Source: Mesorhizobium sp. M1E.F.Ca.ET.045.02.1.1 | GTDB lineage: Bacteria; Pseudomonadota; Alphaproteobacteria; Rhizobiales; Rhizobiaceae | DNA: 64,000 nt | Direction: 5' to 3' | Assembly (NCBI RefSeq): GCF_003952485.1 | Contig: NZ_CP034447.1 | Coordinates: 6,772,501-6,836,500, forward strand | Shown here: one piece after another, positions 9,526-42,305 of the stretch | Layout of the letters: every line of letters starts with the position of its first letter | Position numbering within the stretch: position 1 is the stretch's first letter | Made by a program: the position numbers and the translations under genes | Notes under the pieces: generated by a model | Databases searched by the model: none | Told to the model about the DNA's origin: nothing | What the model saw: only the letters and a program-made list of their open reading frames with translations

Positions 9526-9857
9526 CAGATCAGCGCTCCGCCGCCAAACGAGAAGAACGACAGAAAAAAGCTGGACGCCGCGAAGGCGATCGAGAGGCCA
9601 AAGACGATCTGGATCAGTCGCCGAAAACCTCCGGAAGTATCGCCGAAGGCGAGCGTCAGTCCGGTCACTATGATGATGATCACGGCAATGATCTTGGAGA
9701 CCGGACCTTCGATCGACTGGAGGATCTTCTCCAGCGGCTGCTCCCACGGCATTGACGATCCGGCGGCATTGGCGGCCGAGGCGGCCATGAGACTGATGAA
9801 GAGCGTCGTGCCTGAAGCGGCGATACGCCGGTAGCCTCGCGAGTGAGCGCGGATCAT
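9525..9857 (-). CDS. trbC: Conjugal transfer pilin TrbC (VirB2-like)
   Basis: A 110-residue major pilin precursor. A long signal peptide ends near AANA|AGSSMPW. It is followed by two hydrophobic helices (KIIAVIIIIVTGLTLAFGD and IVFGLSIAFAASSFFLSFF) separated by a short positively charged loop (GGFRR), the standard VirB2/TrbC hairpin. In IncP systems TrbC is cyclised by TraF, and a TraF homologue lies at 31.6 kb in the other half of the split element. ATGA overlap with trbB. Confidence 0.93.
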   Translation of the reverse strand: MIRAHSRGYRRIAASGTTLFISLMAASAANAAGSSMPWEQPLEKILQSIEGPVSKIIAVIIIIVTGLTLAFGDTSGGFRRLIQIVFGLSIAFAASSFFLSFFSFGGGALI

Positions 9858-10837
9858 GAATTGTCTCCTTCATTGTTCTGGCTGGCTTGGGAAGTGCGAT
9901 AGTCGCCGTCGGGACCAAGTCCTTCGACCCGGGTGAGCTCGGTGAGCCGGCGCGCAGAACCGCGTCCGGATAGAACGGCGACCATGTCTATGGTTTCGGC
10001 TATCAGGGCGCGCGGAACGGTGACGACGGCTTCCTGGATGAGTTGCTCGAGACGCCGCAGGGCGCCGATGCCGGAGCCGGCGTGGATGGTGCCGATGCCG
10101 CCGGGATGTCCGGTGCCCCAAGCCTTCAGAAGGTCAAGCGCCTCCGAGCCTCGCACCTCGCCAATGGGGATGCGGTCAGGACGAAGGCGGAGCGAGGAGC
10201 GGACCAGGTCGGCGAGCGATGCGACGCCATCCTTGGTGCGCATGGCGACCATGTTGGGCGCGGAGCATTGCAGTTCGCGCGTGTCCTCGATGATGACGAC
10301 GCGATCCGACCCCTTCGCCACTTCGGCGAGCAGGGCATTGGTCAGCGTCGTCTTGCCGGTGGAGGTGCCGCCCGCCACAAGGATGTTCGCGCGGCCTACT
10401 ACTGCGGCGCGCAACGTGGCCTTCTGGCCGGCGCTCATTATGCCCGCCGCGACATAGTCCTCGAGCGTGAATACAGCGACTGCCGGCTTGCGGATCGCGA
10501 AGGCGGGCGCTGAAACGACGGGCGGAAGCAGCCCCTCGAAGCGTTCGCCGGTTTCCGGCAACTCAGCCGAGACGCGCGGGGAACGGGTATGCACCTCGGC
10601 GCCAACATGGTGAGCGACCAGACGCACAATGCGCTCGCCATCCGCGGCCGGCAGCATCTGGCCCGTGTCAGCCAGACCCTCCGAAAGCCGATCCACCCAG
10701 ATTCGGCCGTCCGGGTTCAACATCACTTCGACGATTGCCGGATCGTCGAGGAACCGGCTGATGGCTTGACCGAGCGCGGTGCGCAGCATGCGCGAACTGC
10801 GCGCGCGTCGTTCGGTGTTGTTGTGCAAAGCTGCCAT
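9854..10837 (-). CDS. trbB: Conjugal transfer ATPase TrbB (VirB11-like)
   Basis: A 327-residue hexameric secretion ATPase. An N-terminal domain ([16 protein letters not shown]) precedes a RecA-like core with Walker [11 protein letters not shown] (around residues 151-160), the Asp box VIIEDTREL, Walker B-like region [12 protein letters not shown] and the His box [11 protein letters not shown]. It is the first gene of the trb operon, divergent from hipB. Normally copG directly precedes trbB. Here copG is 26 kb away, so this operon must use its own promoter in 10838-11009. Confidence 0.96.
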
Positions 10838-10872
10838 TTTGTCCCCGTTTCGGTCGGGAACAATGCAGGCGG

Positions 10873-10886
10873 TCCCCGGTCGGGGA
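10873..10886. promoter_or_regulatory. GC palindrome upstream of trbB
   Basis: TCCCC-GGTC-GGGGA lies 36 bp before the trbB start, and a degraded relative (GTCCCC...GGTCGGGAAC) lies closer to the gene at 10841-10861. This is a possible regulator site for the trb operon. Only the symmetry is seen; no binding protein can be named. Confidence 0.25.
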
Positions 10887-11009
10887 TGATTAAGAGAACG
10901 GTATTCTTAGCTGCTGCAACAGGTTTATCGAGGCGTAGTAGCGTGGCGTGTAAATACAGGAGAAGGACGGCGCTCGCGCGTACAGCCTTTCCATGAGGTT
11001 GGGGATTCC

Positions 11010-11106
11010 ATACGCGACCGCGTATATTGTCATATCATACGCATTTGCGTATAAGCTGCTTCCATACGTGATTACGTATATTGACAAGAAATACGCGAAT
11101 GCGTAT
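11010..11106 (+). promoter_or_regulatory. Four hipBA operator palindromes at an exact 27-bp period
   Basis: Four 16-bp palindromes precede hipB: ATACGC-GACC-GCGTAT (11010-11025), ATACGC-ATTT-GCGTAT (11037-11052), ATACGT-GATT-ACGTAT (11064-11079) and ATACGC-GAAT-GCGTAT (11091-11106). Start-to-start distance is exactly 27 bp each time, with 11-bp spacers. The E. coli hipBA promoter also carries four HipB operators, so these are almost certainly the autoregulatory sites of this operon. A 27-bp pitch is about 2.6 helical turns, so neighbouring sites face roughly opposite sides of the DNA. Confidence 0.85.
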
Positions 11107-11109
11107 ATG
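11081..11109 (+). promoter_or_regulatory. Predicted hipBA promoter embedded in the operators
   Basis: TTGACA (11081-11086) and TATATG (11104-11109) are separated by 17 bp. The -10 overlaps operator 4. A second candidate, TTGTCA (11027-11032) and TATAAG (11050-11055), also with 17-bp spacing, sits exactly two repeat units (54 bp) upstream and overlaps operator 2. Occupancy of the operators would block either one. Confidence 0.6.
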
Positions 11110-11127
11110 GCCCTCTGGAGGCTTGTC

Positions 11128-11382
11128 ATGACCGACCAGATCGCTCGCAACGAGAAGCAACTCGGCGCCATCCTGCGTCGCGCCCGCCGGCAGGCCGACC
11201 TCACGCAAGAGACGCTTGGCAATCAAATCCACCTGCGCCAGGCCACCGTGTCCCGCCTTGAAGCCGGCGAGCCAGCGGTGCGGCTCAGCACGTTGATGGC
11301 CGCTCTCTCCGCCCTCGACCTCGAACTCGTCGTTCGCCCGCGCAGCAAAAGCAGCGCCACCGAGATCGAAGACTTGTTCTGA
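11128..11382 (+). CDS. hipB: HipB-like antitoxin, XRE-family repressor
   Basis: An 84-residue DNA-binding antitoxin. The XRE HTH is clear at residues 7-60 (LGAILRRARRQADLTQETLG and HLRQATVSRLEAGEPAVRLS), followed by a short C-terminal strand (LELVVRPR) of the type that forms the HipB dimer interface. The ATG at 11128 has GGAGG seven bases upstream. The in-frame extension to 10993 is just the operator DNA and is rejected. Its stop overlaps the hipA start (TGATG). It should neutralise HipA and repress the operon through the four upstream palindromes. Confidence 0.9.
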   Translation: MTDQIARNEKQLGAILRRARRQADLTQETLGNQIHLRQATVSRLEAGEPAVRLSTLMAALSALDLELVVRPRSKSSATEIEDLF

Positions 11383-12692
11383 TGGCGAGGCGGCCGGCTC
11401 ACACACCGCTTAATGTCTTCCTGAACGGGCGTCTCGTGGGCGTGTTGCGCAGGCAATCAAACGGCGCCGTGGACTTCCAATACGCCCGCGAATGGCTGGA
11501 CTGGCACGGTACCTTCCCGGTTTCGCTCTCACTTCCTTTGCGGGAGGACCGCTATATTGGCGCGCCTGTGATCAACGTCTTCGACAACCTGCTTCCTGAC
11601 AATGAAGCCATCCGCAAGCGGGTTGCCGAACGCGTCGGCGCGGCTGGCACCGATGCCCACAGCCTGCTCGCCGTGCTGGGCCACGATTGCGTCGGTGCGC
11701 TGCAGTTCCTGCCTGACGGCATTGATCCTGGCAATCCGGGCAGCAGCGATGGCAAGCCAGTCAGCAAAAAGGACATAGCCGGAATAATCGAAAACCTTAC
11801 CGCCGCTCCTCTCGGCCTGGGTGAGGATGGGGATTTCCGCATCTCGATCGCCGGCGCCCAGGAAAAGACGGCGCTGTTGCGCAAGGACGGACGCTGGTTC
11901 AAGCCCATCCGCACGGCTGCCACCACCCACATCCTGAAGCCGCAGATCGGCAGGTTGCCCAACGGCATCGATCTCTCCAATAGCGTCGAGAACGAGTATC
12001 TGTGCCTCAAGCTGCTTGAGGCGTTCGGCGTTCCTGCCGCCAAGACGGAGATCGCGGATTTCGGGGAGCGCCGCACGCTGATCGTCGAGCGCTTCGACCG
12101 GCTTTGGGCCAGGGACGGCCGCCTCCTGCGCCTGCCGCAAGAGGATATGTGTCAAGCGCTGTCGGTCCCGCCGACACGTAAGTACCAGTCAGAGGGCGGA
12201 CCCGGTATGCGGGAGATTATCGACCTTCTGAAGGGCAGTGACCAGCCGGAAGACGACATAGCGGTCTTTCTGCGCGCTTGCATCGTATTCTGGCTGATCT
12301 CGGCGACCGACGGCCACGCCAAGAATTTCAGCATCTTTCTAAGTCCAGGCGGCCGGTTTCGCATGGCACCGCTCTACGACGTGCTGACCGCGCAGCCCAG
12401 CCTTGATGCCGGCCAGATCACTCGCAAAAAATTCAAGTTGGCAATGGCGGTCGGCAAAAGCCGGCACTATTCGGTGCATGAGATTGTGCCCCGCCACTTC
12501 ATACAGACCGCTGACATTGCTGGCGTGGGCACCCCTGTCATGCGCCGAATTTTCGAAGACATTGCCGGAAACGCGGAAAAGCAGGCTGATACCGTGATCT
12601 CCTCACTACCGCGTGGCTTTCCTGGACAGGTTGTCGATTCGGTCAGGTTGGCCATAGGCAGGCGTGCGATGCTTCTTGCTGGTGCAAATTGA
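11382..12692 (+). CDS. hipA: HipA-like serine/threonine kinase toxin
   Basis: A 436-residue toxin of full length. An N-terminal HipA N1 subdomain (FLNGRLVGVLRR) is followed by the kinase core with the Gly-rich loop SIAGAQEKTALL, a THILKPQ strand, ENEYLCLKLLEAFG and ERFDR. The catalytic DGHAKN is near residues 310-315, followed by the metal-binding MAPLYDVLT. E. coli HipA phosphorylates glutamyl-tRNA synthetase and induces dormancy; the substrate here is unknown. The catalytic residues are present, so it should be active. It lies beside the trb operon and probably acts as a stability module for this half of the mobile element. Confidence 0.93.
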   Translation: MARRPAHTPLNVFLNGRLVGVLRRQSNGAVDFQYAREWLDWHGTFPVSLSLPLREDRYIGAPVINVFDNLLPDNEAIRKRVAERVGAAGTDAHSLLAVLGHDCVGALQFLPDGIDPGNPGSSDGKPVSKKDIAGIIENLTAAPLGLGEDGDFRISIAGAQEKTALLRKDGRWFKPIRTAATTHILKPQIGRLPNGIDLSNSVENEYLCLKLLEAFGVPAAKTEIADFGERRTLIVERFDRLWARDGRLLRLPQEDMCQALSVPPTRKYQSEGGPGMREIIDLLKGSDQPEDDIAVFLRACIVFWLISATDGHAKNFSIFLSPGGRFRMAPLYDVLTAQPSLDAGQITRKKFKLAMAVGKSRHYSVHEIVPRHFIQTADIAGVGTPVMRRIFEDIAGNAEKQADTVISSLPRGFPGQVVDSVRLAIGRRAMLLAGAN

Positions 12693-13354: not shown

Positions 13355-13665
13355 ATGCCAACACGCAATGTGTCCTGACCAAGCACCATGAAGAGGTGAT
13401 CGCCCACCTGGTGAAGACCGGGCGTTATCAGAACGCCAGCGAGGTGCTGCGCGAAGGTTTGCGTCTGGTCGAGCAGCGCGAAGCGCGAGAGGAAGCAAAG
13501 GTCGCCGCGCTCAAGGAGGTGGCAAGCATCGGGTTCCAAGACATCGAGTAAGGCCGGTTCAGGGAAATCGACGACGGCAGCGTGGATGAGTTCATTAGCG
13601 GTCTGGGTTGGCAGGCCGGCACGCTGGTCGAACGCCATTTGCCGACAAGCTACGGCGACGGTTGA
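13355..13665 (+). pseudogene. Decayed ParD-type antitoxin gene
   Basis: After MPTRNV the frame hits a stop at once. Restoring one base near 13370-13373 gives LTKHHEEVIAHLVKTGRYQN, then ASEVLREGLRLVE, the signature ParD ribbon-helix-helix and dimer sequence. A second lesion is TAA at 13549-13551, after which the family-like tail GRFREIDDGSVDEF continues to a TGA at 13663. No parE follows. So both a frameshift and a nonsense change inactivate it, and the toxin partner has been lost. The piece sits at the edge of the trb/hip segment, beside an integrase remnant. Confidence 0.75.
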
Positions 13666-13725
13666 CGGTGTGGCGCTAGATGTGCGGCGTGATGTCGGTG
13701 CAAAGGACACGCCCGCGTCAAAACG
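13665..13725 (-). pseudogene. Remnant of a tyrosine recombinase (integrase) gene
   Basis: The minus strand reads VLCTDITPHI-stop-RHTV, which aligns with the catalytic box VFRTDITPHVLRHTA of the intact integrase at 21982-23292; the DNA also matches closely (ACATCACGCCGCAC is shared). Only about 60 bp is recognisable, with a stop in the middle. It indicates that an integrase related to the intact one once lay here, at the boundary between the trb/hip segment and the carrier-protein operon. Confidence 0.55.
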
Positions 13726-13887
13726 CCGGATACAGGCCGATCTGAATCCGAACGCTACAAATTGTACGCGGTCCGTTACCGATCCTTAGGCATGGTTGAA
13801 ATTGGACGGCGGCGTTAACGCCACGGTTGCGCTCTCTCTGCGATATTGCCGCCTGCACAGCACGCAAACGCAAGGGTGGGGCCCTCC

Positions 13888-14133
13888 ATGATCGACCAGA
13901 TTCGCTCGCTGCTCGAGCAGCATCCGATGATTCCGCTGAATTTCGGCGCACTTGCCGACGACGCCAATCTCTACGACGCGGGGCTGACCTCCTTCGCCTC
14001 GGTGCAGATGATGCTGGCGCTCGAGGAAGAGTTCGACATCGAATTCCCCGAGACGATGCTGACGCGGCGGACCTTCTCTTCGCTGGCCAGTATCGCGGAC
14101 GCCGTTTCGCAATTGACGCGCAAGGCGGCGTAG
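13888..14133 (+). CDS. Acyl/aminoacyl carrier protein
   Basis: An 81-residue carrier protein. The phosphopantetheine attachment serine is S35 in DAGLTSFASVQMMLALEEEF, followed by the acidic recognition helix and the FDIEFPE segment typical of ACPs. The ATG at 13888 is chosen over an in-frame start at 13846 because of family length. It opens a six-gene plus-strand operon with the next gene 4 bp away. In Bradyrhizobium, carrier proteins of this kind receive glycine or alanine from a dedicated class II aaRS-like ligase; the ligase homologue is the third gene here. Confidence 0.88.
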   Translation: MIDQIRSLLEQHPMIPLNFGALADDANLYDAGLTSFASVQMMLALEEEFDIEFPETMLTRRTFSSLASIADAVSQLTRKAA

Positions 14134-14137
14134 CGCC

Positions 14138-15343
14138 ATGAACGTGTTGAGAAAGATCGAAACGGCTTCGGTCGCGGAGGCGCCGGAAGCCGCAACTGAA
14201 CGCATGTGCCGCGTCGCCGAGGTCGCCGCGAGCCATGCCGATCCCGTCGACAAGGAAGGCCGTTTCCCGGCGGAGACGATCGAGGCGCTGAAGCGCGAGC
14301 GCCTGCTCGGCGTGGCGATCCCGATCGAGCATGGCGGCGAGGGACTCGGCACGATGCAAATCGCCGACCTCATCGTCCAGCTCGGCCAGGCCTGCGGCTC
14401 GAGCGCGATGATCTATGCCATGCACCAGATCAAAACGTCGAGCTTCGTCACTCACGGCGGCGCCAGCGACTGGCATCGCGCCTATATGCGGCGCATCGCA
14501 GACGAGCAGCTTCTGATGGCTTCCGCGACGACGGAGGCCGGCATCGGCGGCAATTTGCGCAATTCGATCTGCGCGGTCGAGGTCGCCGGCGGGCGTTTCG
14601 CGCTGACCAAGGAAGCCACCGTCATCTCCTATGGCGACTACGCCGACGCCATCCTCGCCACGGCGCGGCGCGCGCCCGATGCGGCCAGCTCCGACCAGGT
14701 GATGGTGGTCATCCCGGTCGATGGCAACCGCACGCTGGAACGCACGTCCGTGTGGGACACGCTCGGCATGCGCGGCACCTGCTCCGATGGCTTTCATCTG
14801 GTCGCCACGGGTGACGCGACGCAGATATTCCCGAAGCCGTTCTCCGAGATCGCGGCGCAGTCGATGCTGGCCAGCTCGCACATCTTCTGGGCGGCGACCT
14901 GGTTCGGCATCGCCGCCGACGCCTTCAATCGGGCGCAGGCATTTGTCAAGGCGGCGGCGCGCAAGCAGCCCGAGGCCATGCCGCCGGGCGCGCTGAGGCT
15001 GGCCGAGGCGGCCGCGCTTTTACAGGAGATGAAAGGCCACCTGACGGCCGCCATCCACCGCTTCGAAGCGGCCAAGGGCGACGACGACGCTTTGTCTTCG
15101 ATCGGCTTCGCCGCCGAGATCAACGCGCTGAAGGTCGCGGCCAGCGAGAAGGCGGGCGCCGTGGTGCGCCTCGCCATGCTGGTCAACGGTATCCTTGGCT
15201 ACAAGAACGGCACCCCGTTCAGCGTCGGCCGGCACTTGCGCGATGTGACCTCGGCGCCGGTGATGATCTCCAACGACCGCATCCTTTCCAATACCGCGAC
15301 GCTCATGCTGATGAGCCGCTTCGACACTGGCCTGGGGGGCTGA
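14138..15343 (+). CDS. Acyl-CoA dehydrogenase-like flavoprotein acting in a carrier-protein operon
   Basis: A 401-residue protein with the ACAD fold. It has an N-terminal helical domain, the middle beta domain ([25 protein letters not shown]) and a C-terminal four-helix domain ([15 protein letters not shown]). The usual catalytic glutamate of acyl-CoA dehydrogenases (in Y-E-G-T) is not obvious; the corresponding region reads [13 protein letters not shown] binding looks intact. It may act on a carrier-protein-bound aminoacyl or acyl group as a dehydrogenase, oxidase or monooxygenase. The flanking genes, 4 bp before and 1 bp after, point to a shared pathway. The substrate is inference only. Confidence 0.8.
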
Positions 15344-15344
15344 T

Positions 15345-16268
15345 ATGGACGCCAAGACATTCGACTCCAAGTCGCTTCTCGACAGCCTGTTCGAGAACGG
15401 CATCCTGTTCGAATCCGGCATCGACGGCCTCTATGGCCGTTCGGGCGCATTCGAGGAAGTGATCGAGCGCTTCGAGCGTCTCGTCACCCGGCTAGGGGCG
15501 CCCGACAAGGCCACCCGCATTCATTTTCCGCCGGGCATGAGCCGCGCGACGCTGGAGAAGAGCGGCTATATGAAGAGCTTTCCGCAGCTGGCCGGCTGTG
15601 TGCATTCGTTCATGGGCGGCGAGCGGGAGCATGCGCAACTGCTCGGCATGATAGCGGATGGCGGGGACTGGACGGAGCTGCAGAAGGCGACGGACGTCGC
15701 GCTGACACCGGCCGCCTGCTATCCGCTCTATCCCACCATCGCCGCGCGCGGCCCGGTGCCGGCGCAGGGCCTGCTTTTCGAGCTCTCCTCGTACTGCTTC
15801 CGCCACGAGCCGTCGAAGGACCCGGCGCGCATGCAGCTCTTTCGCATGCGCGAGTTCGTCAAGATCGGCACGGCCGAGCAGGTGCGCTCGTTCCGCGAAA
15901 GCTGGCTGAAGCGCGGCAAGGCGATGATCGAGCAGCTCGACCTGCCCTGCGAAGTCGATCTTGCCAACGATCCGTTCTTCGGCCGCGGCGGCAAGATGAT
16001 GGCCAACAATCAGCGCGACCAGGGCTTGAAATTCGAGCTGCTGATCCCGGTGACCAGCATCGAGAAGCCGACCGCCTGTTTGAGCTTCAACTATCACCAG
16101 GACCATTTTGGCCGGACCTGGGGCCTGAAGTTCGCCGACGGGGAGTTCTGCCACTCGGCCTGCGTCGGCTTTGGGCTGGAGCGTGTGGCGCTGGCGCTGT
16201 TCCGCCATCACGGGCCGGACGCGGAGGCCTGGCCGGCCGCGGTCCGCGACGTGCTGTGGAGCGTGTGA
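15345..16268 (+). CDS. Amino acid:[carrier protein] ligase, class II aaRS-like
   Basis: A 307-residue protein related to the catalytic core of class II (seryl-type) tRNA synthetases without a tRNA-binding domain. Motif 2 is visible as CFRHEPSKD...[10 protein letters not shown] and motif 3 as [13 protein letters not shown] metal-ligand cysteine and histidine typical of the family are present around CVHSF and in CHSACVG. Characterised Bradyrhizobium and Agrobacterium homologues adenylate glycine or alanine and load it on the phosphopantetheine arm of a partner carrier protein instead of tRNA. Here the partner is surely the ACP-like protein at 13888. Amino acid specificity cannot be read from the sequence. 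Confidence 0.88.
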
Positions 16269-16269
16269 C

Positions 16270-17268
16270 ATGCGCGGAGCTATCGCCGGCCTCGATCCGG
16301 TCAGCTACCGGCCGCACTGGCTGCACGATCCGCAAAGGCGCTGGCCGCAGACCAACTGCTATGTCGACCTCCTGATTGAGGTACTGCACGCGACCGGCCA
16401 CGATCCGGTCGCGGCGCTCGGTTTCACCGTGGCGCAGGATTTCGAGGGCGATCAGTTCACCTTCTTCAAGTTCCCGACCGCCGACCTGCAGCAGTTGGCC
16501 GGGCTGGACATCCAGGAACTGGCGGTCTTCGACCGGCTGGAGACGCATGTGCTGGCGCAAATCGAACTCGGCCGGCTGCCGCTGGTCGAGGTCGACGCCT
16601 TCTACCTGCCCGACACCAGGGGCATCACCTATCGCAACGGCCATTCCAAGACCACGTGCGGCATCGATGCGCTCGATCCCGAGGGGCGGCGGATGCGCTA
16701 CTTCCACAATGACGGCTACTTCGCGCTCGAGGGCGAAGACTACGACGGCATCTTCGGCCAATGGGATGATGTGTCGGCCGGGGACCTGCCGCTGTTTCCT
16801 TACGCGGAATTCGTGAAGTTCGACGCCACGCGCCCGGCCCGTGACGCGGTCGGGACCGCAGCGGCGTTGCTTGCGCATCACTTGAAGCGGCGGCCGAAGC
16901 GCAATCCGCTTGGCGCCTATGCGGCCGCGTTCGGCCGCCACGCTGAAACGCTGGCGACGCGGTCGCCGGACTATTTCCATACCTATGCCTTCAACACGCT
17001 GCGCCAGGTCGGCGCGAATTTCGAACTTCTCGGCAGTCATCTCGAATGGCTGGGGCAGCACGGCGAAACCTGCCTGGCGGAGGCGGCGCAAGCCGCCGGC
17101 GACATTGCCGATGGCGCCAAGGTCATGCAGTTCAAGCTCGCCCGGGCGATGGCGCGGCAGCGTTTCGAGGGCTTGGCCGAGGCGATCGCGCCAATGGCGC
17201 AGGCCTACGAAACGGTGATGGACGTGCTGGACGCCCGCATGGCGGGTGTCGCCTCCAAGGCGGCGTAG
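16270..17268 (+). CDS. DUF1839 family protein, possible papain-like aminoacyl transferase
   Basis: A 332-residue protein of the DUF1839 family, encoded directly after the ligase. An N-terminal cysteine (C30 in QTNCYVDLL), an Asp in [10 protein letters not shown] (D109), a histidine in NGHSKTT (H125) and a downstream Asp (D133 or D136) follow the layout of papain-like acyltransferases such as BtrH. BtrH moves an aminoacyl chain from a carrier protein to an aminoglycoside in butirosin biosynthesis. That resemblance is my inference from motif order. The start at 16270 lies 1 bp after the ligase stop. It could be the enzyme that unloads the aminoacyl group to its acceptor. Confidence 0.8.
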
Positions 17269-17291
17269 GGCCGGGCGAGGCGCATTTGAAC

Positions 17292-19868
17292 ATGGGTGTG
17301 CGAATGGACGCCACGGTGTCGACCGCCGGCACTGTCGAGTTGCTGGAGGGGGGTTGGCGGATGGCCGTCTCGGCGGCCGGCGCTTGGGCTTCGCCGGATG
17401 ATATCGACGCAAACGCCGACTGGCTGGACGCGGCCTGTCCCGGCACGGCGGCGGGCACGCTGGAAAAGCATGGCCGCTGGGACCGCAAGCAGCCAACCCC
17501 GCTGCATGACCGCGATGTCTGGTACAGCCGCCGGCTCGACGCGACCGGCCCGGCGCGGCTGGTGTTCGAGGGACTGGCGACTGTCGCCGAGGTCTGGCTT
17601 GGCGACCGGCTGCTGCTTACCTCGACCTCGATGTTCGAGCGCCACGAGGCCGCGGTGACCCTTTCAGGCGGCGAGCCGCTCGCCATCGTCTTGCGCAGTC
17701 TCGACCGCCATCTGGAAACGGCGACCGGTCCACGCGCGCGCTGGCGTCCTCGCATGATCGACGATCAGCGGCTGCGGTTGGTGCGCACCACCCTGATCGG
17801 ACACATGCCGGGCTGGTGCCCGACCTTCGATGTCGTCGGGCCGTGGCGTCCCGTCAAGCTGATCCGCGAAAATGGCGGGCAGCGCATCCTCGATGCCGAC
17901 ATGCGCGCCAGCCTCGACGGTTCGACCGGGCATCTTGCCGTTGCGATCACCCTCGCTGAACCTATCGACGATGCGCAGACGGCGCATGTCAGCTGCGCTG
18001 GAGTGCGTGCGTGCCTCAAGGTCGAGACACCCACCCGGCTGACGGCGGAACTGGACATTGCCGATGTCGCCCCATGGTGGCCGAACAGTCATGGCGAGCC
18101 GGCGCTGCACGACGTGATGGCGACGATCGGCACGATGCGCAGCCGGCTCGACCGGGTCGGGTTTCGCCGTATCGAGATCGATCGCGGCGCCGACGGACGC
18201 GACTTCCGCCTCGTCGTCAACGGCGTGCCGGTATTCTGCCGCGGCGCGGTCTGGACGCCGTCCGATCCTGTGCGGCTGCCATGCGAGCGGGGCGAAATCG
18301 AGCTCGAGCTCGACCTCGTGCGTCGAGCCGGCGTCAACATGCTGCGGGTCGGCGGCACCTTCGCTTATGAGGGCGATGCGTTCCACGAGCTGTGCGACGA
18401 GATGGGCATTCTCGTCTGGCAGGACCTGATGCTCGCCAATTTCGACTATCCCGCGAAGAGCGAGGCCTGGCGGGCGGCGCTGTCGAGCGAGGTGGAAAAC
18501 CTGTTGAAGCGGCTTCGGCATTCGCCGTCGCTGGCGGTGCTGTGCGGCGGCAGCGAGGTGGCGCAGCAGGCTGCGATGCTCGGCATGCCGGCGGCGATGG
18601 ATCCGACACCCTGGCTCGACGCGGTCGTGCGTCCGGCCGCACAGGCGATCCTGCCCGATCTCGCGCTGGTGTCCTCGTCGCCCTCCGGCGGCAGTCTGCC
18701 CTTCGCCGCGGATGGCGGCCCGACGCATTATTATGGCGTCGGCGCCTATTGCCGGCCGCTGGAAGACGCGCGCCGCGCGGAGGTGCGTTTCGCCAGCGAG
18801 TGCCTCGCCTTCGCCAACGTGCCGGAACAGACGACGCTGGATGAGCAACTGCCCGTTCCGCCCGGCCACGATCCGCGCTGGAAGGCCGGTGTGCCGCGCG
18901 ACGCAGGTGCGTCGTGGGATTTCGAGGACGTGCGCGAGCATTATCTGGAGACGCTGTTCGGCGTCGATGTGCGCCGGCTGCGCATGGAAGATCCCGCGCG
19001 CTACCTCGACCTCTCACGCGCCGTCACCGCCGAGGTGGTTGAGCGCACGATCGACGAATGGCGCAGACCAGCTTCGCCGACGGCGGGTGCGCTGCTGTTT
19101 TTCTGGAAGGATCTGCGCCCGGGCGCAGGGTGGGGCATCGTCGATTCCACCGGACGGCCGAAATCGGTCTGGCATGCGCTGAGACGCGCCTTCGCGCCGC
19201 TCAGGCTGACGCTGAGCGACGAGGGCGTCAACGGGCTGGGCGTCCATCTCGTCAATGACGGAGCAAAGGCGGTCGAGGCGACGCTGTCGCTTGCCTGTTT
19301 GCGCGATGGCGTCACCCCGGTGGTGACGGCGCGCCAGCCGGTCACCGTGCAGGCGCGCGGGGCGCAGTTTCTGTCGGCGTTTTCGCTGCTCGGCGCCTTC
19401 TTCGACCTGTCTTATGCCTATCGCTTCGGCCCGGCGGGTCACGAGGTAACCGTGGCAAGGCTGGAAGGCCGCGACGGCGAAATCCTGGCCGAAGCCTTTC
19501 ATGTGCTTCCCGGCGCCATGACCGCGCGACGCGATGTCGGCCTGTCGGCGCGGTTGGTGCGGGGAGGAGAAGACGGCTGGCGCCTGCGGCTCGCCTGCAG
19601 GCGAGCTGCCTATCACATCGCCATCAAGGATGGGCTGTTCCTTCCGCGCGAGAACGGCTTCCACCTGATGCCGGGTGCGGAGAAGGAAATTGGCCTTGAC
19701 GGACCGGCCTCGTCCACGCCGGCCGGCATCGTGACAGCGCTGAACGGCGATCGCGACGTAACCTACGATGCGCCGCAAGCCGGCAATGCGGAAATCGGGG
19801 CGGAAACCGGGGCAGAAACCGGGGCAGAGATCATGCGGGCGTTGGAGCCCACTGGGAGCATGGCATGA
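17292..19868 (+). CDS. Glycoside hydrolase family 2 (beta-mannosidase-like) protein
   Basis: An 858-residue protein with GH2 architecture. An N-terminal galactose-binding-like sandwich ([26 protein letters not shown]) is followed by immunoglobulin-like domains and a TIM barrel ([48 protein letters not shown]). The probable acid/base glutamate is E422 in CGGSEV and the probable nucleophile E503 in FASECLAF. It has no signal peptide, so a cytoplasmic role is likely. It overlaps the next gene by 4 bp. Finding a glycosidase in an aminoacyl-carrier operon suggests that the acceptor or product is a sugar or glycan. An earlier in-frame start at 17046 overlaps DUF1839 and is rejected. Confidence 0.82.
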
Positions 19869-21655
19869 GGGGGATAGTCTTCGCCGACACGATCGGCTGG
19901 CTTCATGAAGGCAAGGGCAACGAGCGGCGCGGCCGGGGCGTCGTCATCGCCGGGGCGCATGGGCACGAGGACCTGTGCAGCCGGCGTTTCCTGAGGCTGC
20001 TGGCCGACAAGGTGGCCGAAAACGGTCTGAAGGTGCTGCAGTTCGACTATCCCGGCTGCGGCAATGCCGCCGGGGATCATTCAACGCCCAATCAGGTGCG
20101 ATCGTGGACGCAGAGCATAGGCGCCGCGATCGATCGGCTGAAGCGGGATTGCGGCGTGGCGGACGTCATTTTGGTCGGCTTCCGGCTTGGCGCTCTGCTG
20201 GCGCCGCTGGCGGCGGCCGGACGAGACGACGTGGCCGGTCTCGTGGTGCTCGCGCCGCCGTCCTCCGGCAAGGCCTATGTCCGCGAGATCACGGCCATGT
20301 CGCGCATGATCGACGCGCCGCTGGCCAGCCGTTCGGCGGGCGAAGGGGTTTTCACCGAGGGGCGCGAGGCCGCTGGCTTCCGGATTTCGCATGAGACGCT
20401 GGCCGACCTTTCGGCGCTCGACTGGCGGCATGCCGCGGCAAGCCTTCCACCCTTGCCGATGCTGGTGCTTACAAACGGCAAGCCGCTCGCCGCCGCCGAA
20501 ATCCGTGGCGGCGAGGCGGGCCCTGCGGATTTCGCCGAGGCCGAGTTCGATGGCTATCCTCTCTTGATGTGCGACCCGACCGCTAACCGGATTCCGGCCG
20601 CCGCTCTTGACCGCTGCGCAGGCTGGATAGCCGACCATAAAGGCGAAGCGGTCGCAGGAAAGGCCATGCCGCACGATGCGTCGGAGTCCCTGGACGGTCC
20701 GCATTATACGGAAAAGCCGGTCCTGATCGGACCGGAGCCGATGATCTGCGGCGTGCTTTGCCGGCCGCACGGACGCCAGGCCGCAGCCGAGCCGGTGATC
20801 TTCCTAAATGCCGGTGGCGTGCCGCATGTCGGCTGGGCGCGTGGCACGGTGGAAGCGGTGCGGGAGCTGGCGGCGGAAGGCGTAGCTTCGCTGCGCGTCG
20901 ACCTGCCCGGACTTGGCCTCAGCGATCCGACCGAGGAAGGGCGCCTGTTCCTCTATGACGGGCGCACGCGCCATGATGTGGGCCGTGCAATCGACTGGAT
21001 GGAACGAGCCGGCTACCCTACTGTCGGCTTGGTCGGCACCTGCGCCGGCGCATTCCAGGCTTTTCACACCGCACGGGCCGATCGGCGGGTGCGGACGCTG
21101 ACCATGATCAACCCGCTCTGCTTCGCCTGGAACAGTTCCTACGCGCTGGAGATGGCGGTCTGGAAGACTTACGAGACGTCCAAGGCCGTGCTCGGGCAGA
21201 ACGCCGCCGCCATTGAGGAGAGCCGCGAGCCGGACGCCCCGGCATGGCGCGGGATCGCTTCGCGCAGCGCCCGGCTGATTGTCCGGCGCGGGCTGGAGGC
21301 GATCAAGTCCACAGTGTCGATGCTGCATCCGGCCGCTCTATTGGGACAGCGGCGGGTGGAACGCTGGATGCGCGACCTTTGCGGCCGAGGCGTGCGGGTT
21401 CTCCTGGTGACCTCGGAAGGCGACCTGAGCCTGAAGGAGATCGCCCGCCATTTTGGGTCGGGTGAGGAGCGGCTCGACAGCATTCGTGGCGTGACCAGGG
21501 TCTCGCTGGCGAATGCCGACCACACGCTGACGCCGTACCATGCACGGCGCGCCGTGATCGCCCGCCTGATCGATCATGGCGGCATCAGGCGTGACGGCCA
21601 CGCTCGTTCCGAGCCGGTGCGTGCGACGACAAGTCCGTCCTTCCTGGCACCATAG
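19865..21655 (+). CDS. Tandem alpha/beta-hydrolase protein with non-standard nucleophile elbows
   Basis: A 596-residue protein with two alpha/beta-hydrolase domains, about residues 5-250 and 285-580. In domain 1 the nucleophile elbow reads GFRLG, with Arg107 where Ser is expected, so this domain is probably catalytically dead. In domain 2 the elbow reads GTCAG with Cys393 as the candidate nucleophile, and a late His occurs in ANADHTLTP. Cys elbows occur in acyl-transferring members such as PHA synthases and some thioesterase domains. It is the last gene of the operon. It could release or transfer the carrier-bound product; no substrate is known. Confidence 0.8.
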
Positions 21656-21762
21656 GCGCCAAGGACGCGCGGGGCGAGCATGTCCGCCTGAAATAGATCG
21701 GCGAGAGGCTGCATCTCAGGGCCGCCTGAGCAACCCGAGAACGGCAAAAGCCCCACATGAGA

Positions 21763-21788: not shown

Positions 21789-21866
21789 TTCCGATAATGT
21801 TCCAAGTGCGGAAACCGGCCAAGCCGTTGGAATGTCGCCGGAAAACGTGGATTTTAGGTTTCGTTC

Positions 21867-21914
21867 TGGTCGGAGTGGCAGGATTTGAACCTGCGACCCC
21901 ATCGTCCCGAACGA
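21867..21914 (-). other. 3' fragment of tRNA-Pro, attachment site of the integrative element
   Basis: The minus strand reproduces the 3' half of a tRNA-Pro with anticodon CGG. It runs from the anticodon stem-loop (TCGTTCGGGACGA) through the T-arm (GGTTCAAATCC) to the acceptor end including CCA. Upstream of the anticodon stem the match stops abruptly, so the gene is not functional. This is the usual displaced 3' end left by tRNA integration. Because the missing 5' half would lie at higher coordinates, the element extends to the right (integrase first) and chromosome lies to the left. No intact tRNA-Pro is found in the window. Confidence 0.8.
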
Positions 21915-21981: not shown

Positions 21982-23292
21982 TTATTTCCGGCGATTCTGT
22001 GGGGTAACTGTGGGGTAGTCGGAAAAGTTCTCCTTCTGTGCCACGAGCTTCCTGACTGTGTTTTTGGGCACGCTTCGCGAAGGTGACTTGGAGACGATCG
22101 CCCGGGTGGCATTGGCCTGAAAATCGGGGTGATGGTGCCCATAGGTCTCAATCAGCATTTCGACTGTCATGCCAAGAAAGCCCGCGGCCTCCCACGGGTC
22201 GGTACCCTGCTGCATCAGCCAGGTCGCCGCTGTGTGGCGCAAGACGTGCGGCGTGATGTCAGTTCGGAACACGCGCCGTATGCTACCGTCAGGTGCTGCC
22301 GCGTCGTCATACCAGCCGAGCCCGGCTGCCTCGACCACCGAGCGGAAGGCTTTCTTGATCGACTGCACTGGTTTGCCGTTCCACTCTACGACGTAGTCGT
22401 GCGCGATCATGCGGCCGATGCTTGCGCTCTTCCCGCGGTTCTTGGTCTTGATCTCCAATGGCGTTGCCGCCCAGCGACGCATATGTGCGAGCAGCCGGTC
22501 AGGCAACCTGACCGGTGGTTGGCGCTTGTTCGTGTCGCTGCGGCGGGCGGCGCGGCGGTAGAAAATGCCGTGTTCGAGGTCGACATATCCGGCACCCTCT
22601 GTTGGCCGGATGGCCGCTCCGCAGATCGCGGCCGACCGGGTGCCAGTGTACAGAGCAACCAGGATGAATCGCGCGACGTGGCGTGCGGTGCGGCGGTCGC
22701 TTGGCTTGCCCTTCCATGACTGGCGCATGCGCCATGCGGCGCGAAGCAGCGCGGCTGCTTCATCGCGTGTCAACCAACGGTCGCGTGGTAGAGGCTTCGC
22801 TGGCAGCACGATCGCGGGTGCACAGGTTATATAGCCTTCACGGTGATAGTTGTTCAGCGCCGCGCGCAGATCCTCCAACTGACGTCTGGCGCCGGCGCCA
22901 TTGCCGTGCGCCTTCGCGTAGTCACGACAGACCTTGCCATTGATGTCGCCGATTTTCGTGTTGCCGAACCACCTTAGCACGGCGATGAGCCGTTCGGCGG
23001 TTTCCTTTGGCTTGGCGTGTGAGAGCGCTACGTCGGTAAGATAAACACTAATGGCGTTGGCTATCGGGACGGTGGCCGGATCGCGGCCGCGCTCGCGGGC
23101 CGGCCGGTATTTTTCGATGATGTGTTGGGCGAGCCGTTTCTCAGCGCGTTCGCGGTCGCCAGTGCTACCGCAAGCGCTGATGAAGGTTGCTCCATCGCGG
23201 ATGAACCAGCCGGCTCCGTTGCGCAGGCTGCCGTCCGCCCTTCTGCTTTCGGCGCGCCAGACCAGGCGCGCCCCTTTCGACGTCCGCGGCAT
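21982..23292 (-). CDS. Site-specific tyrosine recombinase (ICE integrase)
   Basis: A 436-residue integrase. A SAM-like core-binding domain occupies about residues 75-165 and the catalytic domain about 175-395. Catalytic residues are Arg219 (YTGTRSAA), His349 and Arg352 (HVLRH), the histidine of GHHHPD, and the nucleophile Tyr384 (IETYG). All are present, so it should be active. It reads toward the tRNA-Pro att fragment 68 bp beyond its stop, as expected for the enzyme that integrates there. A remnant of a related gene lies at about 13.7 kb. Start ATG at 23292. Confidence 0.95.
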   Translation of the reverse strand: MPRTSKGARLVWRAESRRADGSLRNGAGWFIRDGATFISACGSTGDRERAEKRLAQHIIEKYRPARERGRDPATVPIANAISVYLTDVALSHAKPKETAERLIAVLRWFGNTKIGDINGKVCRDYAKAHGNGAGARRQLEDLRAALNNYHREGYITCAPAIVLPAKPLPRDRWLTRDEAAALLRAAWRMRQSWKGKPSDRRTARHVARFILVALYTGTRSAAICGAAIRPTEGAGYVDLEHGIFYRRAARRSDTNKRQPPVRLPDRLLAHMRRWAATPLEIKTKNRGKSASIGRMIAHDYVVEWNGKPVQSIKKAFRSVVEAAGLGWYDDAAAPDGSIRRVFRTDITPHVLRHTAATWLMQQGTDPWEAAGFLGMTVEMLIETYGHHHPDFQANATRAIVSKSPSRSVPKNTVRKLVAQKENFSDYPTVTPQNRRK

Positions 23293-23483: not shown

Positions 23484-24065
23484 TGCATGTCTCTCGTTTG
23501 ACGTCGGAGAACAAACTCGGCGTCATCGCCGCCCCTGAGATGATCCGGCACTGGCCAGAACAGTTGCCCGACATGACCGAAATTCTTCGCCTGTAAGCGC
23601 AGGATCCATCGGTATCGAACAGCTAAAGCATAGCTGGCACTCCGAGGTCATTCTCACCACCATGTGTTTATGCGCTCGAAGAGTACGCATCCAAGATGCC
23701 GTCTGTGAACAGCACTAGACCTCTAATGTGGTGATTAGGACACTCTGGCGTAAAAAACGGCTGTTTATCGGTCAGGAATAACTTATGAAAATCGCGCTGC
23801 CATTCGAGTCTATATTCAAAATTCAGTAGCAGCCAAGACATGAGGCCGCCTTCCAACGTCGTCACTGGGCAACTTCGGCGACGCGCTCTGAACGCCCAAC
23901 AAGACGGTTCACGAAGGTATCGCCAATGAGCTGCTCGCGCGGCGCCGGCGAAGGCGGCGATCTTGCGGCGACGTCACCGCGATAGAGTGAGAGTTTGGAT
24001 TGGCTTTTCCACGACGGGTCGAAAGCTGGGGAGAGTCCTCCAGCGCCTGTCGCGGAGAAATCACG
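23484..24065. other. Degenerate region between the integrase and ardC
   Basis: On the plus strand about 23505-23597 the translation ENKLGVIAAPEMIRHWPEQ and then LPDMTEILRL-stop reads like a genuine protein C-terminus, but no start or N-terminal part is present. It is probably a gene remnant. From about 23600 to 23860 the DNA is noticeably more AT-rich than its surroundings, suggesting recent acquisition or decay. Apart from the small minus-strand frame listed at 23668-23841, nothing else is recognised. Confidence 0.45.
23668..23841 (-). CDS. Hypothetical protein, 57 residues
   Basis: A short frame (MSWLLLNFEYRLEWQRDFHK, then FTPECPNHHIRGLVLFTDG) with a good SD (GGAAGG, spacing 7). Composition is AT-richer than its neighbours and rich in aromatic residues, unlike most shadow frames here. 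No family is recognised. It could be real or a remnant. Confidence 0.3.
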   Translation of the reverse strand: MSWLLLNFEYRLEWQRDFHKLFLTDKQPFFTPECPNHHIRGLVLFTDGILDAYSSSA

Positions 24066-25031
24066 ATGTCCAATCACTATCACCGACGCGGAGCCGCCGG
24101 CGGCCGGTCGAACCTCTATGACGAGATAACCGACAAGATCATCAAGGAGTTGGAGGCGGGCCGGCTTCCTTGGGTTCAGCCATGGGGGAGCGCGGCGGCC
24201 AAGGCGCCGCTTGCGCTGCCTCGGAACGCCAGCACCGGCAGAGCATATAGCGGCATCAATGTGCTTATCCTGTGGGGCGCCGTCGTCGAGCAAGGCTATA
24301 CGGGCCAAAGCTGGCTGACTTTCCGCCAGGCCCTCTCGCTCGGCGGAAACGTTCGGAAGGGCGAGCACGGCACAACCATCGTTTACGCCGATTGCTTTGT
24401 TCCTGACGATGAGAAGAAACGCGCCAGAGATACTGGCGAAGATGCCCGACCGGTTCCATTCCTCAAGAAGTTCACCGTGTTCAATGCAGAGCAATGTGAA
24501 GGTTTGCCGGAAGAAATCGAAGTCTCGCCGCTACCTGACCCGGCCCCGATCGAGCCCCGCGTCGAAGCCCTGATCAAGGCCACAGGCATCGAATTCCGCA
24601 TCGGCGGCGATCGAGCCTATTACTTGCCAATCCAGGACCGCGTTCAAGTACCCCCGCCTCAAGCCTTCTTCGAGCCTATCAACTGGCATCGCACGGCGCT
24701 GCATGAACTTGGCCATGCCACGGGCCATCCCTCGCGTCTTGCTCGCGACTTCTCCGGCTCGTTTGGAACCAGAAAGTATGCGTTCGAGGAACTCGTGGCA
24801 GAGATCAGCGCCGCCTTCTCGTGCGCTGCTTTGGGTATCGTTCCGACCGTGCGGCATGCCGACTACATCGGATCCTGGCTGGAGGTGCTGCGGGAGGACA
24901 ATCGCGCTGTCGTGCGCGCCGCCAGCCTGGCGGGCAAGGCGGCCGACTGGCTCCTCGGCCATCTGCCAGAAGAAGTCGCGCTGCCCATCGAGGTGGATGC
25001 CGATGCCGATCAGAGCAGGAGGGCAGCCTGA
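24066..25031 (+). CDS. ardC: ArdC-like antirestriction protein with zincin domain
   Basis: A 321-residue protein with an N-terminal ssDNA-binding ArdC domain (YDEITDKIIKELEAGRLPWVQPW, with GINVLILW and WLTFRQA), and a C-terminal zincin-like domain with HELGH at residues 213-217 and the downstream glutamate in FEELVAEIS. ArdC of IncW plasmids protects incoming single-stranded DNA from restriction. GGAGA sits eight bases before the ATG at 24066, so an in-frame start at 24000 is rejected. It overlaps the Toprim gene by TGATG. It is part of the establishment region of the element. Confidence 0.9.
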   Translation: MSNHYHRRGAAGGRSNLYDEITDKIIKELEAGRLPWVQPWGSAAAKAPLALPRNASTGRAYSGINVLILWGAVVEQGYTGQSWLTFRQALSLGGNVRKGEHGTTIVYADCFVPDDEKKRARDTGEDARPVPFLKKFTVFNAEQCEGLPEEIEVSPLPDPAPIEPRVEALIKATGIEFRIGGDRAYYLPIQDRVQVPPPQAFFEPINWHRTALHELGHATGHPSRLARDFSGSFGTRKYAFEELVAEISAAFSCAALGIVPTVRHADYIGSWLEVLREDNRAVVRAASLAGKAADWLLGHLPEEVALPIEVDADADQSRRAA

Positions 25032-32173: not shown

Positions 32174-32491
32174 ATGCCGCAGATCGGAGAATTCAACCGC
32201 CATCAGACTGGGCATTCGGGGCGAATTCAAACGCTCAGCCTCAACCTTGAGGTCGCAATTGTCGCGGCCGAAGCGAGCGATGCGGACAATGCGCCCGACC
32301 ATGGTGTGCATGCTGGTGGCGAAGATGGCGTCGTGATTGGCGCCGGTTGGATACACTCCAGCGAGAAGGTCGGCGAATTCATATCGCTGCAGACAGACGA
32401 CCCGACTTTCGCGCAGCCGATTCGCGCTTACGACAAGAAGTCCTGGTCTTTACAATGGTCGCGCCAGCGCGATCGCGCCGAGAAGGACTAA
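32174..32491 (+). CDS. DUF736 family protein (second copy)
   Basis: A 105-residue DUF736-type protein (MPQIGEFNRHQTGHSGRIQT, VIGAGWIHSS, ISLQTDDPTF, SLQWSRQ), clearly divergent from the copy at 28871. GGAGAAATGAC precedes the ATG at 32174. It lies between traF and the lytic transglycosylase, the usual place. Function unknown. Confidence 0.85.
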   Translation: MPQIGEFNRHQTGHSGRIQTLSLNLEVAIVAAEASDADNAPDHGVHAGGEDGVVIGAGWIHSSEKVGEFISLQTDDPTFAQPIRAYDKKSWSLQWSRQRDRAEKD

Positions 32492-32494
32492 GCG

Positions 32495-33268
32495 ATGTCG
32501 GCGCGCCGTCAGCCGGCGAGCCAAGCGGGAGCGCTCGCATTGCCTCGCGCGCTCTGGCGCTCGGCCTTGTTTGTGCTTGGCGGACTTTGCATCACCTGCG
32601 TGGTTGCCGCCTCTGCACCGGCGAAGAACCCGCCGGCTGTGATGCCGCCGGCCCGCAATCGTTACGACAATCACATTGCGGAAGCGGCGAAGCGCTTCCG
32701 CCTTCCGCCGACCTGGATCCGCGCCGTGCTTGGCGCCGAAAGTGCCGGCGACCAACGCGCCACATCGCGCAAGGGCGCTATGGGGCTGATGCAGATCGTG
32801 CCCAACACCTGGTCCGACCTGCGCGTTCGGTACCGACTCGGCGCCGATCCCTACGACCCGCACGACAATATCATCGCCGGCTCGGCCTATATCCGCGAGT
32901 TGGTTGATCGCTACGGATGGCCCGGCTGGATTGCCGCATATAATGCTGGCCCTCGGCGCTACGAAGCGTCGCTGAAAGGCAGGCGGCTGCCTCGGGAAAC
33001 GCTTGCCTATGTCGCTATCGTTGCGTCTGCCATCGGCAACACTGGTACGATGAAAGCTAACAGCCCGACGTTCTCCGGACGGTATGGCTGGAAGTACGCT
33101 CCGCTGTTCGTCGCGCAGCCGAGCGACACCCCGGGCGACCCTTCGACACGGCCGGAGCGCTCCCGCGATGACGCTTCAAAGACTGTGCCCAAGGAAGGAT
33201 TGGCCGACGCCGCACCTCGATCGACCGGCCTGTTCGTTCCCGAAGCGAGCAAAAAGTCCGCGCCATGA
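32495..33268 (+). CDS. Lytic transglycosylase (VirB1-like)
   Basis: A 257-residue exported muramidase. An N-terminal hydrophobic signal or anchor (LFVLGGLCITCVVAAS, residues 26-41) precedes an SLT domain with the catalytic glutamate in LGAESAGD, the KGAMGLMQIVPNTW motif, and AAYNAGP. The C-terminal 60 residues are low-complexity. It opens the peptidoglycan for the conjugation channel. It is placed right before the relaxase gene and 3 bp after DUF736. Confidence 0.92.
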   Translation: MSARRQPASQAGALALPRALWRSALFVLGGLCITCVVAASAPAKNPPAVMPPARNRYDNHIAEAAKRFRLPPTWIRAVLGAESAGDQRATSRKGAMGLMQIVPNTWSDLRVRYRLGADPYDPHDNIIAGSAYIRELVDRYGWPGWIAAYNAGPRRYEASLKGRRLPRETLAYVAIVASAIGNTGTMKANSPTFSGRYGWKYAPLFVAQPSDTPGDPSTRPERSRDDASKTVPKEGLADAAPRSTGLFVPEASKKSAP

Positions 33269-33372
33269 GCCGCCCCGACGCTCTTCGCCCCATCTCGTGG
33301 TTCTGCGTGCCATGGCGTACGGACCGGGTAGGTGCAGGCAACCCGACCGAGCGATGGCAGGATAAAAGGGCG

Positions 33373-33500
33373 CACATTGCGCGCCGGTCGAACGGTAGGA
33401 TTTGCCAGGTTTTCGGGCCCACGTCGCACATTGCGGCCCCTATGGGCAATGTGCGCGGAGCGCCAGAAGCCTTGTGTTCGCGTCGTCTTTTCCACATTGC
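33373..33500 (+). other. Candidate oriT upstream of rlxS
   Basis: The 243-bp gap before rlxS carries three direct copies of CACATTGC (33373-33380, 33427-33434, 33493-33500) and one inverted copy. One direct and the inverted copy form a perfect 10-bp inverted repeat CGCACATTGC (33425-33434) / GCAATGTGCG (33446-33455) with an 11-base spacer GGCCCCTATGG. Inverted repeats next to the relaxase gene are the usual anatomy of an oriT; the nick site is not identified. Confidence 0.5.
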
Positions 33501-33511
33501 CGGACAGCGCC

Positions 33512-35251: not shown

Positions 35252-35273
35252 CAGTTTTGGAAAGGATCACGCC

Positions 35274-37256: not shown

Positions 37257-37261
37257 CCGCC

Positions 37262-38479: not shown

Positions 38480-38502
38480 GCTAGCAGCGGCCGGTGGCGG
38501 TC

Positions 38503-40119: not shown

Positions 40120-40136
40120 GTCAGCGATCCCCATCT

Positions 40137-42177: not shown

Positions 42178-42305
42178 CGGCGCCCCGCTTCAGCCAGGGC
42201 GACAGCTCTCCAGACGAGATCGTAGCGCGCTGGCATCTCTGATCTTCGCACCGGGATGCCCGAAAATCCAATCCGACTTTCGGCCCGGCACGACGACAGA
42301 CCGCG

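Follow-up and report, generated by a model that had tools for sequence, protein, structure and literature searches.

A conserved six-gene operon of Mesorhizobium as a candidate carrier-protein-dependent system for the aminoacylation of exported glycans

The window analysed here is a stretch of 64,000 nucleotides from the forward strand of Mesorhizobium sp. M1E.F.Ca.ET.045.02.1.1 (contig NZ_CP034447.1, positions 6,772,501 to 6,836,500), whose 7.35 Mb genome is a single contig. It carries an operon of six genes encoding a carrier protein (CP), a flavoenzyme of the acyl-CoA dehydrogenase (ACAD) fold, an amino acid:[carrier protein] ligase related to aminoacyl-tRNA synthetases (aaRS), a DUF1839 protein, a glycosidase-like GH2 protein, and a double alpha/beta-hydrolase (Table 1). 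We estimate at about 0.6 the probability that this operon directs a cytoplasmic, CP-dependent pathway in which an amino sugar destined for an exported glycan is aminoacylated; on balance, such a sugar is the likely acceptor. From computed gene order, co-occurrence, folds, and residue conservation, we infer every reaction of the pathway outlined below as well as a lipid-linked oligosaccharide as the acceptor.

In the proposed pathway, the ligase would activate a small amino acid (glycine or alanine, to judge by its homologues) and load it onto the phosphopantetheine of CP. The ACAD-fold flavoenzyme would then alter the thioester-bound aminoacyl group, oxygenation (of the nitrogen or of C-alpha, for instance) being the probable reaction. 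Cys30 of DUF1839 would accept the acyl group and pass it to a sugar amine to form an amide, comparable to the reaction of CcbD in lincosamides. The GH2 protein would bind or trim the glycan acceptor, presumably a lipid-linked oligosaccharide, its Ser-Glu pair fitting a C2-amino or C2-substituted sugar. The Cys double hydrolase would work on the glycan side, close to where the flippase acts, either to carry out a second transfer or to release or proof-read an acyl group that is wrong. The six operon proteins look soluble. A fuller picture, in which exported glycans are decorated with an oxidised aminoacyl group, a papain-fold enzyme with exchanged Thr and His makes the amide, and the GH2_14 'galactosidases' act on the glycan side, is offered tentatively.

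The six genes lie on one strand, all with ATG starts, and the gaps of 4, 1, 1, 23, and -4 bp given by a first-pass annotation of this DNA are confirmed by the open reading frame (ORF) calls. The gap sizes vary with the choice of start because three ORFs have alternative upstream starts in the list of longest frames: CP (TTG at 13846), DUF1839 (TTG at 16171), and GH2 (ATG at 17046). A scan of 84,980 species genomes for DUF1839 gave 557 places, of which the best 80 were used for the locus surveys, with the window's own locus (L001) left out; among these 80, the named loci closest to the window's operon are from Mesorhizobium. In 77 of the 80 loci, the order CP-ACAD-ligase-DUF1839-GH2 is kept on a single strand over no more than 6 kb, which bears out the earlier claim of one unit. 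Among the exceptions, L020 and L063 open at the edge of a contig, at the expected position of CP. In L044 (Roseibium denhamense, 9907-10001), CP, ACAD, DUF1839, GH2, and the hydrolase are present, with no ligase match in the stretch examined. The hydrolase gene lies directly 3' of GH2 on the same strand in 19 of the 80 loci and is its convergent neighbour in 27; in 8 it has another place in the stretch examined, and in 26 it was not found in that stretch. Six of 59 matching annotated plasmid records were also examined; L114, L116, and L118 (two from Azospirillum, of which L118 is the A. brasilense Sp7 laboratory strain, and one from Mycetohabitans) hold all six genes in order and L115, L117, and L119 the first five, and these copies widen the range of the operon to Azospirillum and the Betaproteobacteria. 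A protein database yielded 2,385 DUF1839 relatives among 7,999 scored candidates.

Co-occurrence was surveyed in two samples that have some genomes in common, one of 249 genomes from the phylum and one of 199 from the order. DUF1839 was found in 7 genomes of the former and 26 of the latter, and the ligase adjoins it in 7/7 and 26/26. The ligase itself scored above its cut-off in 15 genomes of the phylum sample, with a weaker match in 15 further, and in 36 of the order sample, 10 of them without DUF1839, with a weaker match in 4 further. The double hydrolase is present in all 31 DUF1839 genomes tested; in 30 the match is almost complete and scores 506 bits or more, and in the other (G023) it is a 207-bit partial match at a contig edge. 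Second full-length copies occur in G228 and G034, and all other extra matches score about 38 bits or lower. Among 30 genomes without DUF1839, 12 of them ligase-only, no double hydrolase was found at E 1e-12. The hydrolase search used E 0.001 in the DUF1839 genomes and E 1e-12 in the others, and the counts are comparable for the full protein because the matches of about 38 bits would drop at 1e-12 too. In the DUF1839 genomes, several hydrolase matches run across stop codons, one or two each; for G234 (L095), the case checked, the stop is the gene's own end. Presence in 31/31 genomes with DUF1839 against 0/30 without it therefore assigns the hydrolase to the DUF1839 branch and not to the trio of CP, ACAD, and ligase. 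A genome survey of this kind had been suggested by the first-pass annotation, and the genes do co-occur outside this strain (ligase 26/26, hydrolase 31/31). The six genes are one widely conserved unit that is not specific to one strain. A chance cluster or an oddity of one strain is excluded by the gene spacing together with the gene order kept across loci.

CP scores 97.7 bits against NF005480 (cut-off 72), its nearest solved chains are 4h2w_C, 'Aminoacyl carrier protein', and 2jq4 (Atu2571 of Agrobacterium tumefaciens), and Ser35 is kept in 96/96 aligned sequences. The ligase reaches 492.4 bits with the NCBIfam model 'amino acid--[acyl-carrier-protein] ligase' (NF005479, cut-off 357), falls below the cut-off of Pfam tRNA-synt_2b, and matches the solved structures 4h2w and 3mey (Bll0957) at E 1.4e-98 or better; its proposed membership of the carrier-loading aaRS-like family is thus upheld. 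C125, E170, and C273 are found in 100/100 ligases and align with the Bll0957 chains at what we take to be the positions of the Bll0957 zinc ligands (Cys, Glu, Cys). Homologous ligases charge Gly or Ala. To judge from its sequence, the ligase very likely loads an amino acid onto CP.

Bll0957-type loci (ligase-only L082-L092) resemble the operon in that their ligase is homologous, ACAD adjoins it, and CP is near, but all 11 genomes are without DUF1839 and without the double hydrolase. CP is divergent in the 8 of these loci that show it; none is shown in L088 and L089, and the table for L091 is partial. The product of this branch may differ from that of the DUF1839 branch. In the ligase-only loci checked (L082, L089, L092), sulfur amino acid genes lie near the trio: a PNP_UDP_1 phosphorylase, presumably of the methylthioadenosine type, in L082, and a Cys/Met PLP enzyme in L089 and L092. 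L092 also has a homoserine O-succinyltransferase, an AMP-binding enzyme, and an SDR, and a small L092 protein that resembles a second carrier has no Pfam match.

The transfer step is assigned through DUF1839, which scores 411.9 bits against PF08893 (cut-off 22.5). Its structural model aligns with AziU3, CcbD, and CtaG over residues ~9-330 of 332 with Foldseek TM-scores of 0.53-0.61, and shows the two-domain architecture (papain-like plus helical) of the BtrH/CcbD/CtaG enzymes. CcbD couples a carrier-bound amino acid with an amino sugar in lincosamides through a Cys-His-Glu triad. DUF1839 differs from this lincosamide synthetase (CcbD/LmbD) in two respects: by alignment its residues run C30, T128, H146 and not Cys-His-Asp/Glu, and the carrier of CcbD is charged by a stand-alone adenylation enzyme of the nonribosomal peptide synthetase (NRPS) type, whereas that of the operon is charged by an aaRS-like ligase. 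The residue order agrees with the assignment of DUF1839 as papain-like with C(T/S)H in PMC10318531 (2023). In relatives of BtrH_N (PF14399; the type of BtrH from butirosin and CtaG from closthioamide), C12, H125, and D141 are invariant among nine aligned sequences, these being nine of 12 places after L103 and L104 (start unclear) and L111 (partial) were left out; by alignment and counting on from it, DUF1839 has Thr at their His and His at their Asp. The BtrH_N Pfam profile has no match in the DUF1839 protein at E up to 0.1, DUF1839 being the only family found, and the sole match of the DUF1839 profile among sequences of solved structures is unrelated (E 3.6). BtrH is not among the fold matches of the model, which carries no weight either way. 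The modelled fold makes it quite probable that DUF1839 is an amide-forming transferase. Transfer had at first been ascribed to either DUF1839 or the Cys hydrolase; the CcbD/AziU3/CtaG fold supports the former, and the hydrolase is favoured as a separate step. The open literature searched yielded no experiments on DUF1839, subscription journals being largely outside that search.

The flavoenzyme is above the cut-offs of PF02771 and PF00441, with the middle domain PF02770 below its own. The ACAD-like fold claimed earlier is thereby retained, but two sites speak against dehydrogenation: position 377, the MCAD-type Glu site, is Ile in 97 of 99 sequences (Val in 1, a gap in 1), and position 247, the isovaleryl-type Glu site, is Ser, Ala, Thr, or Cys in 99/99. 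The mapping of both sites is based on two paralogues from the same genome and supported by them, Glu occupying position 377 in L123 and position 247 in L122 (L121 was unused). A desaturase or a prolyl-carrier-type dehydrogenase was rejected, since both catalytic Glu sites lack an acid. The Glu is likewise missing from ACAD in the ligase-only loci L082, L085, L087, and L088, which makes an aminoacyl carrier a more likely substrate than a sugar. Nitrososynthases, which we take to act on amino sugars, are among the better profile matches, and ordinary ACADs score above them. Because the dehydrogenase base is missing, oxygenation is suggested as the reaction of this flavoenzyme, at roughly even odds. 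A modification 'probably via monoxygenation', as worded in the 2010 note in PMC2922099, is in line with this reading.

The GH2 protein has both catalytic glutamates, E422 and E503, in 87/87 sequences, and Ser421 precedes the acid/base in 86/87 (Asn in L096); this Ser-Glu in place of Asn-Glu is the doublet of GH2_14 as defined in PMC12243196. At position 354, which a single sequence alignment equates with the site where GH2_14 has Gly instead of the loop-2 His/Trp, the protein of the window's operon has Gly, as do 65/87, with Pro in 14 and Ala in 8. The best-matching solved chains are beta-mannosidases, and the eight N-termini inspected by eye are without an obvious signal peptide. The A. tumefaciens protein AAL43556 is presumably the operon's GH2 protein in that species. 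In PMC1976428, AAL43556 is grouped with AAU48942 as having 'a different catalytic doublet', and AAU48942 is one of the two GH2_14 enzymes described in PMC12243196. According to the latter, both are without a signal peptide, slow on pNP-beta-galactoside (pNP, p-nitrophenyl), and inactive on mannobiose, one of them being also weakly active on two galactosides; the same source holds that Ser-Asp in beta-glucosaminidases suits a C2 amine and that Ser-Glu in GH2_14 perhaps admits substituted substrates. From the alignments used throughout, short copies were left out (ACAD L063 and L020; DUF1839 L070; GH2 L005, L006, and L014), and the subsets for structure or profile alignment comprised 44/89 (A1), 45/61 (A2), and 31/99 (A3) sequences.

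The proposed link to glycans, already part of the first-pass scheme, is supported by the neighbouring genes. Clusters of these, named by Pfam from one representative per cluster, include GT4 and GT2 glycosyltransferases, a GumK-type glucuronosyltransferase, Wzz, a Wzx-type Polysacc_synt protein, and GH5. In 20/26 genomes, a flippase-family gene (PF01943) is no more than 20 kb from DUF1839 or the hydrolase, against ~0.9 expected, and in 14/26 no more than 10 kb away, against ~0.5, where the expected number is a simple density estimate with no permutation and the 26 genomes are related; with matches above the Pfam cut-off alone, the count within 20 kb is 18/26. Each flippase frame was counted once, and five second pieces were left out. 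The hydrolase is unlinked from DUF1839 in 5/26 genomes, and a flippase adjoins it in 3 of those (G144, G293, G417). On the plasmids, O-antigen ligase, GumC, and cellulase-family genes are listed near the operon in Shinella (L119), acyltransferase, ArnT-like, and LTA-synthase-family genes lie near the Mycetohabitans copy, and GT9 and sulfotransferase genes near that of A. brasilense.

Several observations weigh against the proposed pathway. No flippase-family gene is near in 6/26 genomes, the window's own included, and two of the 20 flippase cases (G083, G341) are below the Pfam cut-off. Half of the plasmid loci (L114, L115, L117; 3/6) list no glycan-export gene within 12 kb in tables that are incomplete. 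Wzx- or Wzz-like neighbours also stand beside the ligase-only trios L085, L086, L090, and L092 (confirmed by Pfam for L092), and the glycan link is consequently not specific to the DUF1839 branch; it may belong to the CP/ACAD/ligase trio as a whole. The fold likeness of DUF1839 alone proves no function, its Thr/His exchange may alter the chemistry, and the acceptor of AziU3 is, we assume, not a sugar. The two characterised GH2_14 enzymes gave just slow beta-galactosidase activity on pNP-Gal, and the acceptor of CtaG is a non-sugar.

The product could, moreover, be a small metabolite. By unchanged chemistry, the operon would then yield a small diffusible aminoacyl-sugar, similar to lincosamides or aminoglycosides, with a free or nucleotide-linked amino sugar as acceptor. 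DUF1839 is structurally closest to CcbD, AziU3, and CtaG, all of them natural-product enzymes, some flanks (L114, L115, L117) list no glycan-export genes, an integrase can adjoin the operon, and the distribution is patchy, with DUF1839 in 5/25 genomes of the genus sample, the window's own counted. We nevertheless consider this alternative unlikely in view of the flippase-family genes in 20/26 genomes, which stand also beside unlinked hydrolases (3/5), and of a wide, conserved distribution (557 places) that is unlike most secondary metabolite loci.

A further alternative to glycan aminoacylation by DUF1839 is that the Cys double hydrolase transfers the amino acid, DUF1839 being a carrier thioesterase or structural partner. 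The Cys elbow noted earlier in this protein is real: in domain 2, Cys393 and His553 are kept in 61/61 sequences and Asp520 in 60/61, while domain 1 is without a nucleophile (position 107 is Gly in 38 and Arg in 23 of 61). The AF2 model (pLDDT 84.1, good apart from the tail) resembles lipases and esterases. The conserved Cys393-Asp520-His553 and the co-occurrence with DUF1839 (31/31 against 0/30) speak for such a role, but of the six genes that of the hydrolase varies most in location and orientation, whereas DUF1839 has a fixed place beside the ligase and matches CcbD, which forms such bonds, and we regard hydrolase-catalysed transfer as improbable. With scores below cut-off, the hydrolase also resembles two NCBIfam models, exosortase-A-associated hydrolases 1 and 2, and looks like a fusion of two such genes. 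A breakdown pathway, in which GH2 and the hydrolase cleave an imported aminoacylated or acylated glycan and the carrier genes recycle the amino acid, would account for two hydrolase-type proteins in the operon and for the glycosidases and transporters listed near it in Azospirillum L114, yet it is very improbable given an ATP-using ligase and a CcbD-fold enzyme, which are assembly machinery, and flippase, Wzz, and glycosyltransferase neighbours that point to synthesis.

The idea of glycan aminoacylation by this operon has been published before, apparently without an experimental test in the open literature searched. A note in proof in PMC2922099 (2010) predicts that the DUF protein attaches an amino acid to a sugar of the cell surface through the amino group of that sugar, and describes the aaRS-like ligase beside an acyl carrier protein (ACP), a redox enzyme, the highly conserved uncharacterised Atu2574, a glycosidase, and liposaccharide genes. 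The gene set of A. tumefaciens Atu2571-Atu2575, whose carrier Atu2571 is PDB 2jq4, is alike, and in our reading these are the operon's five genes in the same order. The first-pass statement that what follows loading is 'not known' therefore misses both this prediction and the papain-like assignment of 2023; its overall scheme is mostly supported and is not new. In the passages of PMC2922099 covered here, there is no mention of the double hydrolase, a CcbD-type fold, the absence of a dehydrogenase base, or a Ser-Glu pair. The present analysis adds the sixth gene and the counts, the CcbD/AziU3/CtaG fold, the loss of both dehydrogenase bases, and the Ser-Glu doublet of GH2. Atu2573 appears once in a transcriptome study (PMC11941606), and a literature search on aminoacylated rhizobial polysaccharides returned mainly general reviews. 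A 2022 review (PMC9437257) calls the biological role of amino acids on such carriers unknown.

NRPS-like peptide synthesis was rejected, the six proteins being without a Pfam condensation or AMP-binding domain. D-alanylation by the Dlt system is similar in that a carrier-bound amino acid is placed on an envelope polymer, and CP weakly resembles DltC. The Dlt system employs an AMP-binding ligase and membrane proteins and forms an ester; no Pfam domain of a Dlt-type AMP-binding ligase or membrane transferase was found in the six proteins at E up to 0.1. If the proposed pathway is true, the operon explains carrier-bound amino acids and gives DUF1839 and GH2_14 a natural role. It would constitute a second route to aminoacylated envelope glycans, a Gram-negative counterpart in logic to teichoic acid D-alanylation built from unrelated parts, and would offer a new carrier-dependent amide-forming enzyme for sugar chemistry.

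Table 1. Coordinates of the operon genes and adjoining features in the window
Feature	Position	Strand	Description
Carrier protein (CP)	13888-14133	+	81 aa; phosphopantetheine Ser35; PF00550 5e-9
ACAD-like flavoenzyme	14138-15343	+	401 aa; PF02771 and PF00441 (acyl-CoA-dehydrogenase fold)
Amino acid:[carrier protein] ligase	15345-16268	+	307 aa; class II aaRS-like; NF005479
DUF1839 (PF08893)	16270-17268	+	332 aa; papain-like; C30, T128, H146
GH2 protein	17292-19868	+	858 aa; PF22666 (Glyco_hydro_2_N2); Ser421-Glu422 / Glu503
Double alpha/beta-hydrolase	19865-21655	+	596 aa; two stretches in PF12697 and PF12146 (Abhydrolase)
49-bp tRNA-3'-end-like sequence	21866-21914	-	49/49 bp identical in the downstream flank of L011
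Tyrosine recombinase (Phage_integrase)	21982-23292	-	PF00589 1.5e-7

The operon seems to move as a mobile cassette. By blastn at E 1e-20, the loci L002, L005, L006, and L011 share with the window just ~13.63-21.67 kb (13628-21672), and L003, L004, L007, and L070 share additional pieces, in part rearranged; in L070 the operon lies between pieces that match 32310-37729 and 38198-44397 of the window. The 49-bp sequence downstream of the operon, presumably the 3' end of a tRNA gene, is a probable attachment site adjoining the operon; 45-47 of its 49 bp are identical downstream of the operon in L003, L004, and L007, and ARAGORN found no whole tRNA gene in the window. Recombinase-like DNA adjoins the operon in L003 and L004 (66%) and in L007 (88%). 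Identity that ends at the operon borders, the tRNA-like end, the integrase, and the patchy distribution in the genus together lead to the view that the operon travels as a cassette. The stretches 9854-12692 and 24000-25031 hold genes for a T2SSE secretion-type ATPase, a helix-turn-helix (HTH) and a HipA-like protein, and an ArdC-like anti-restriction protein, which on sequence grounds are mobile-element surroundings of the operon. Within the genus, the DUF1839 match is short or in two pieces in G005, G018, and L070, possibly marking decaying copies.

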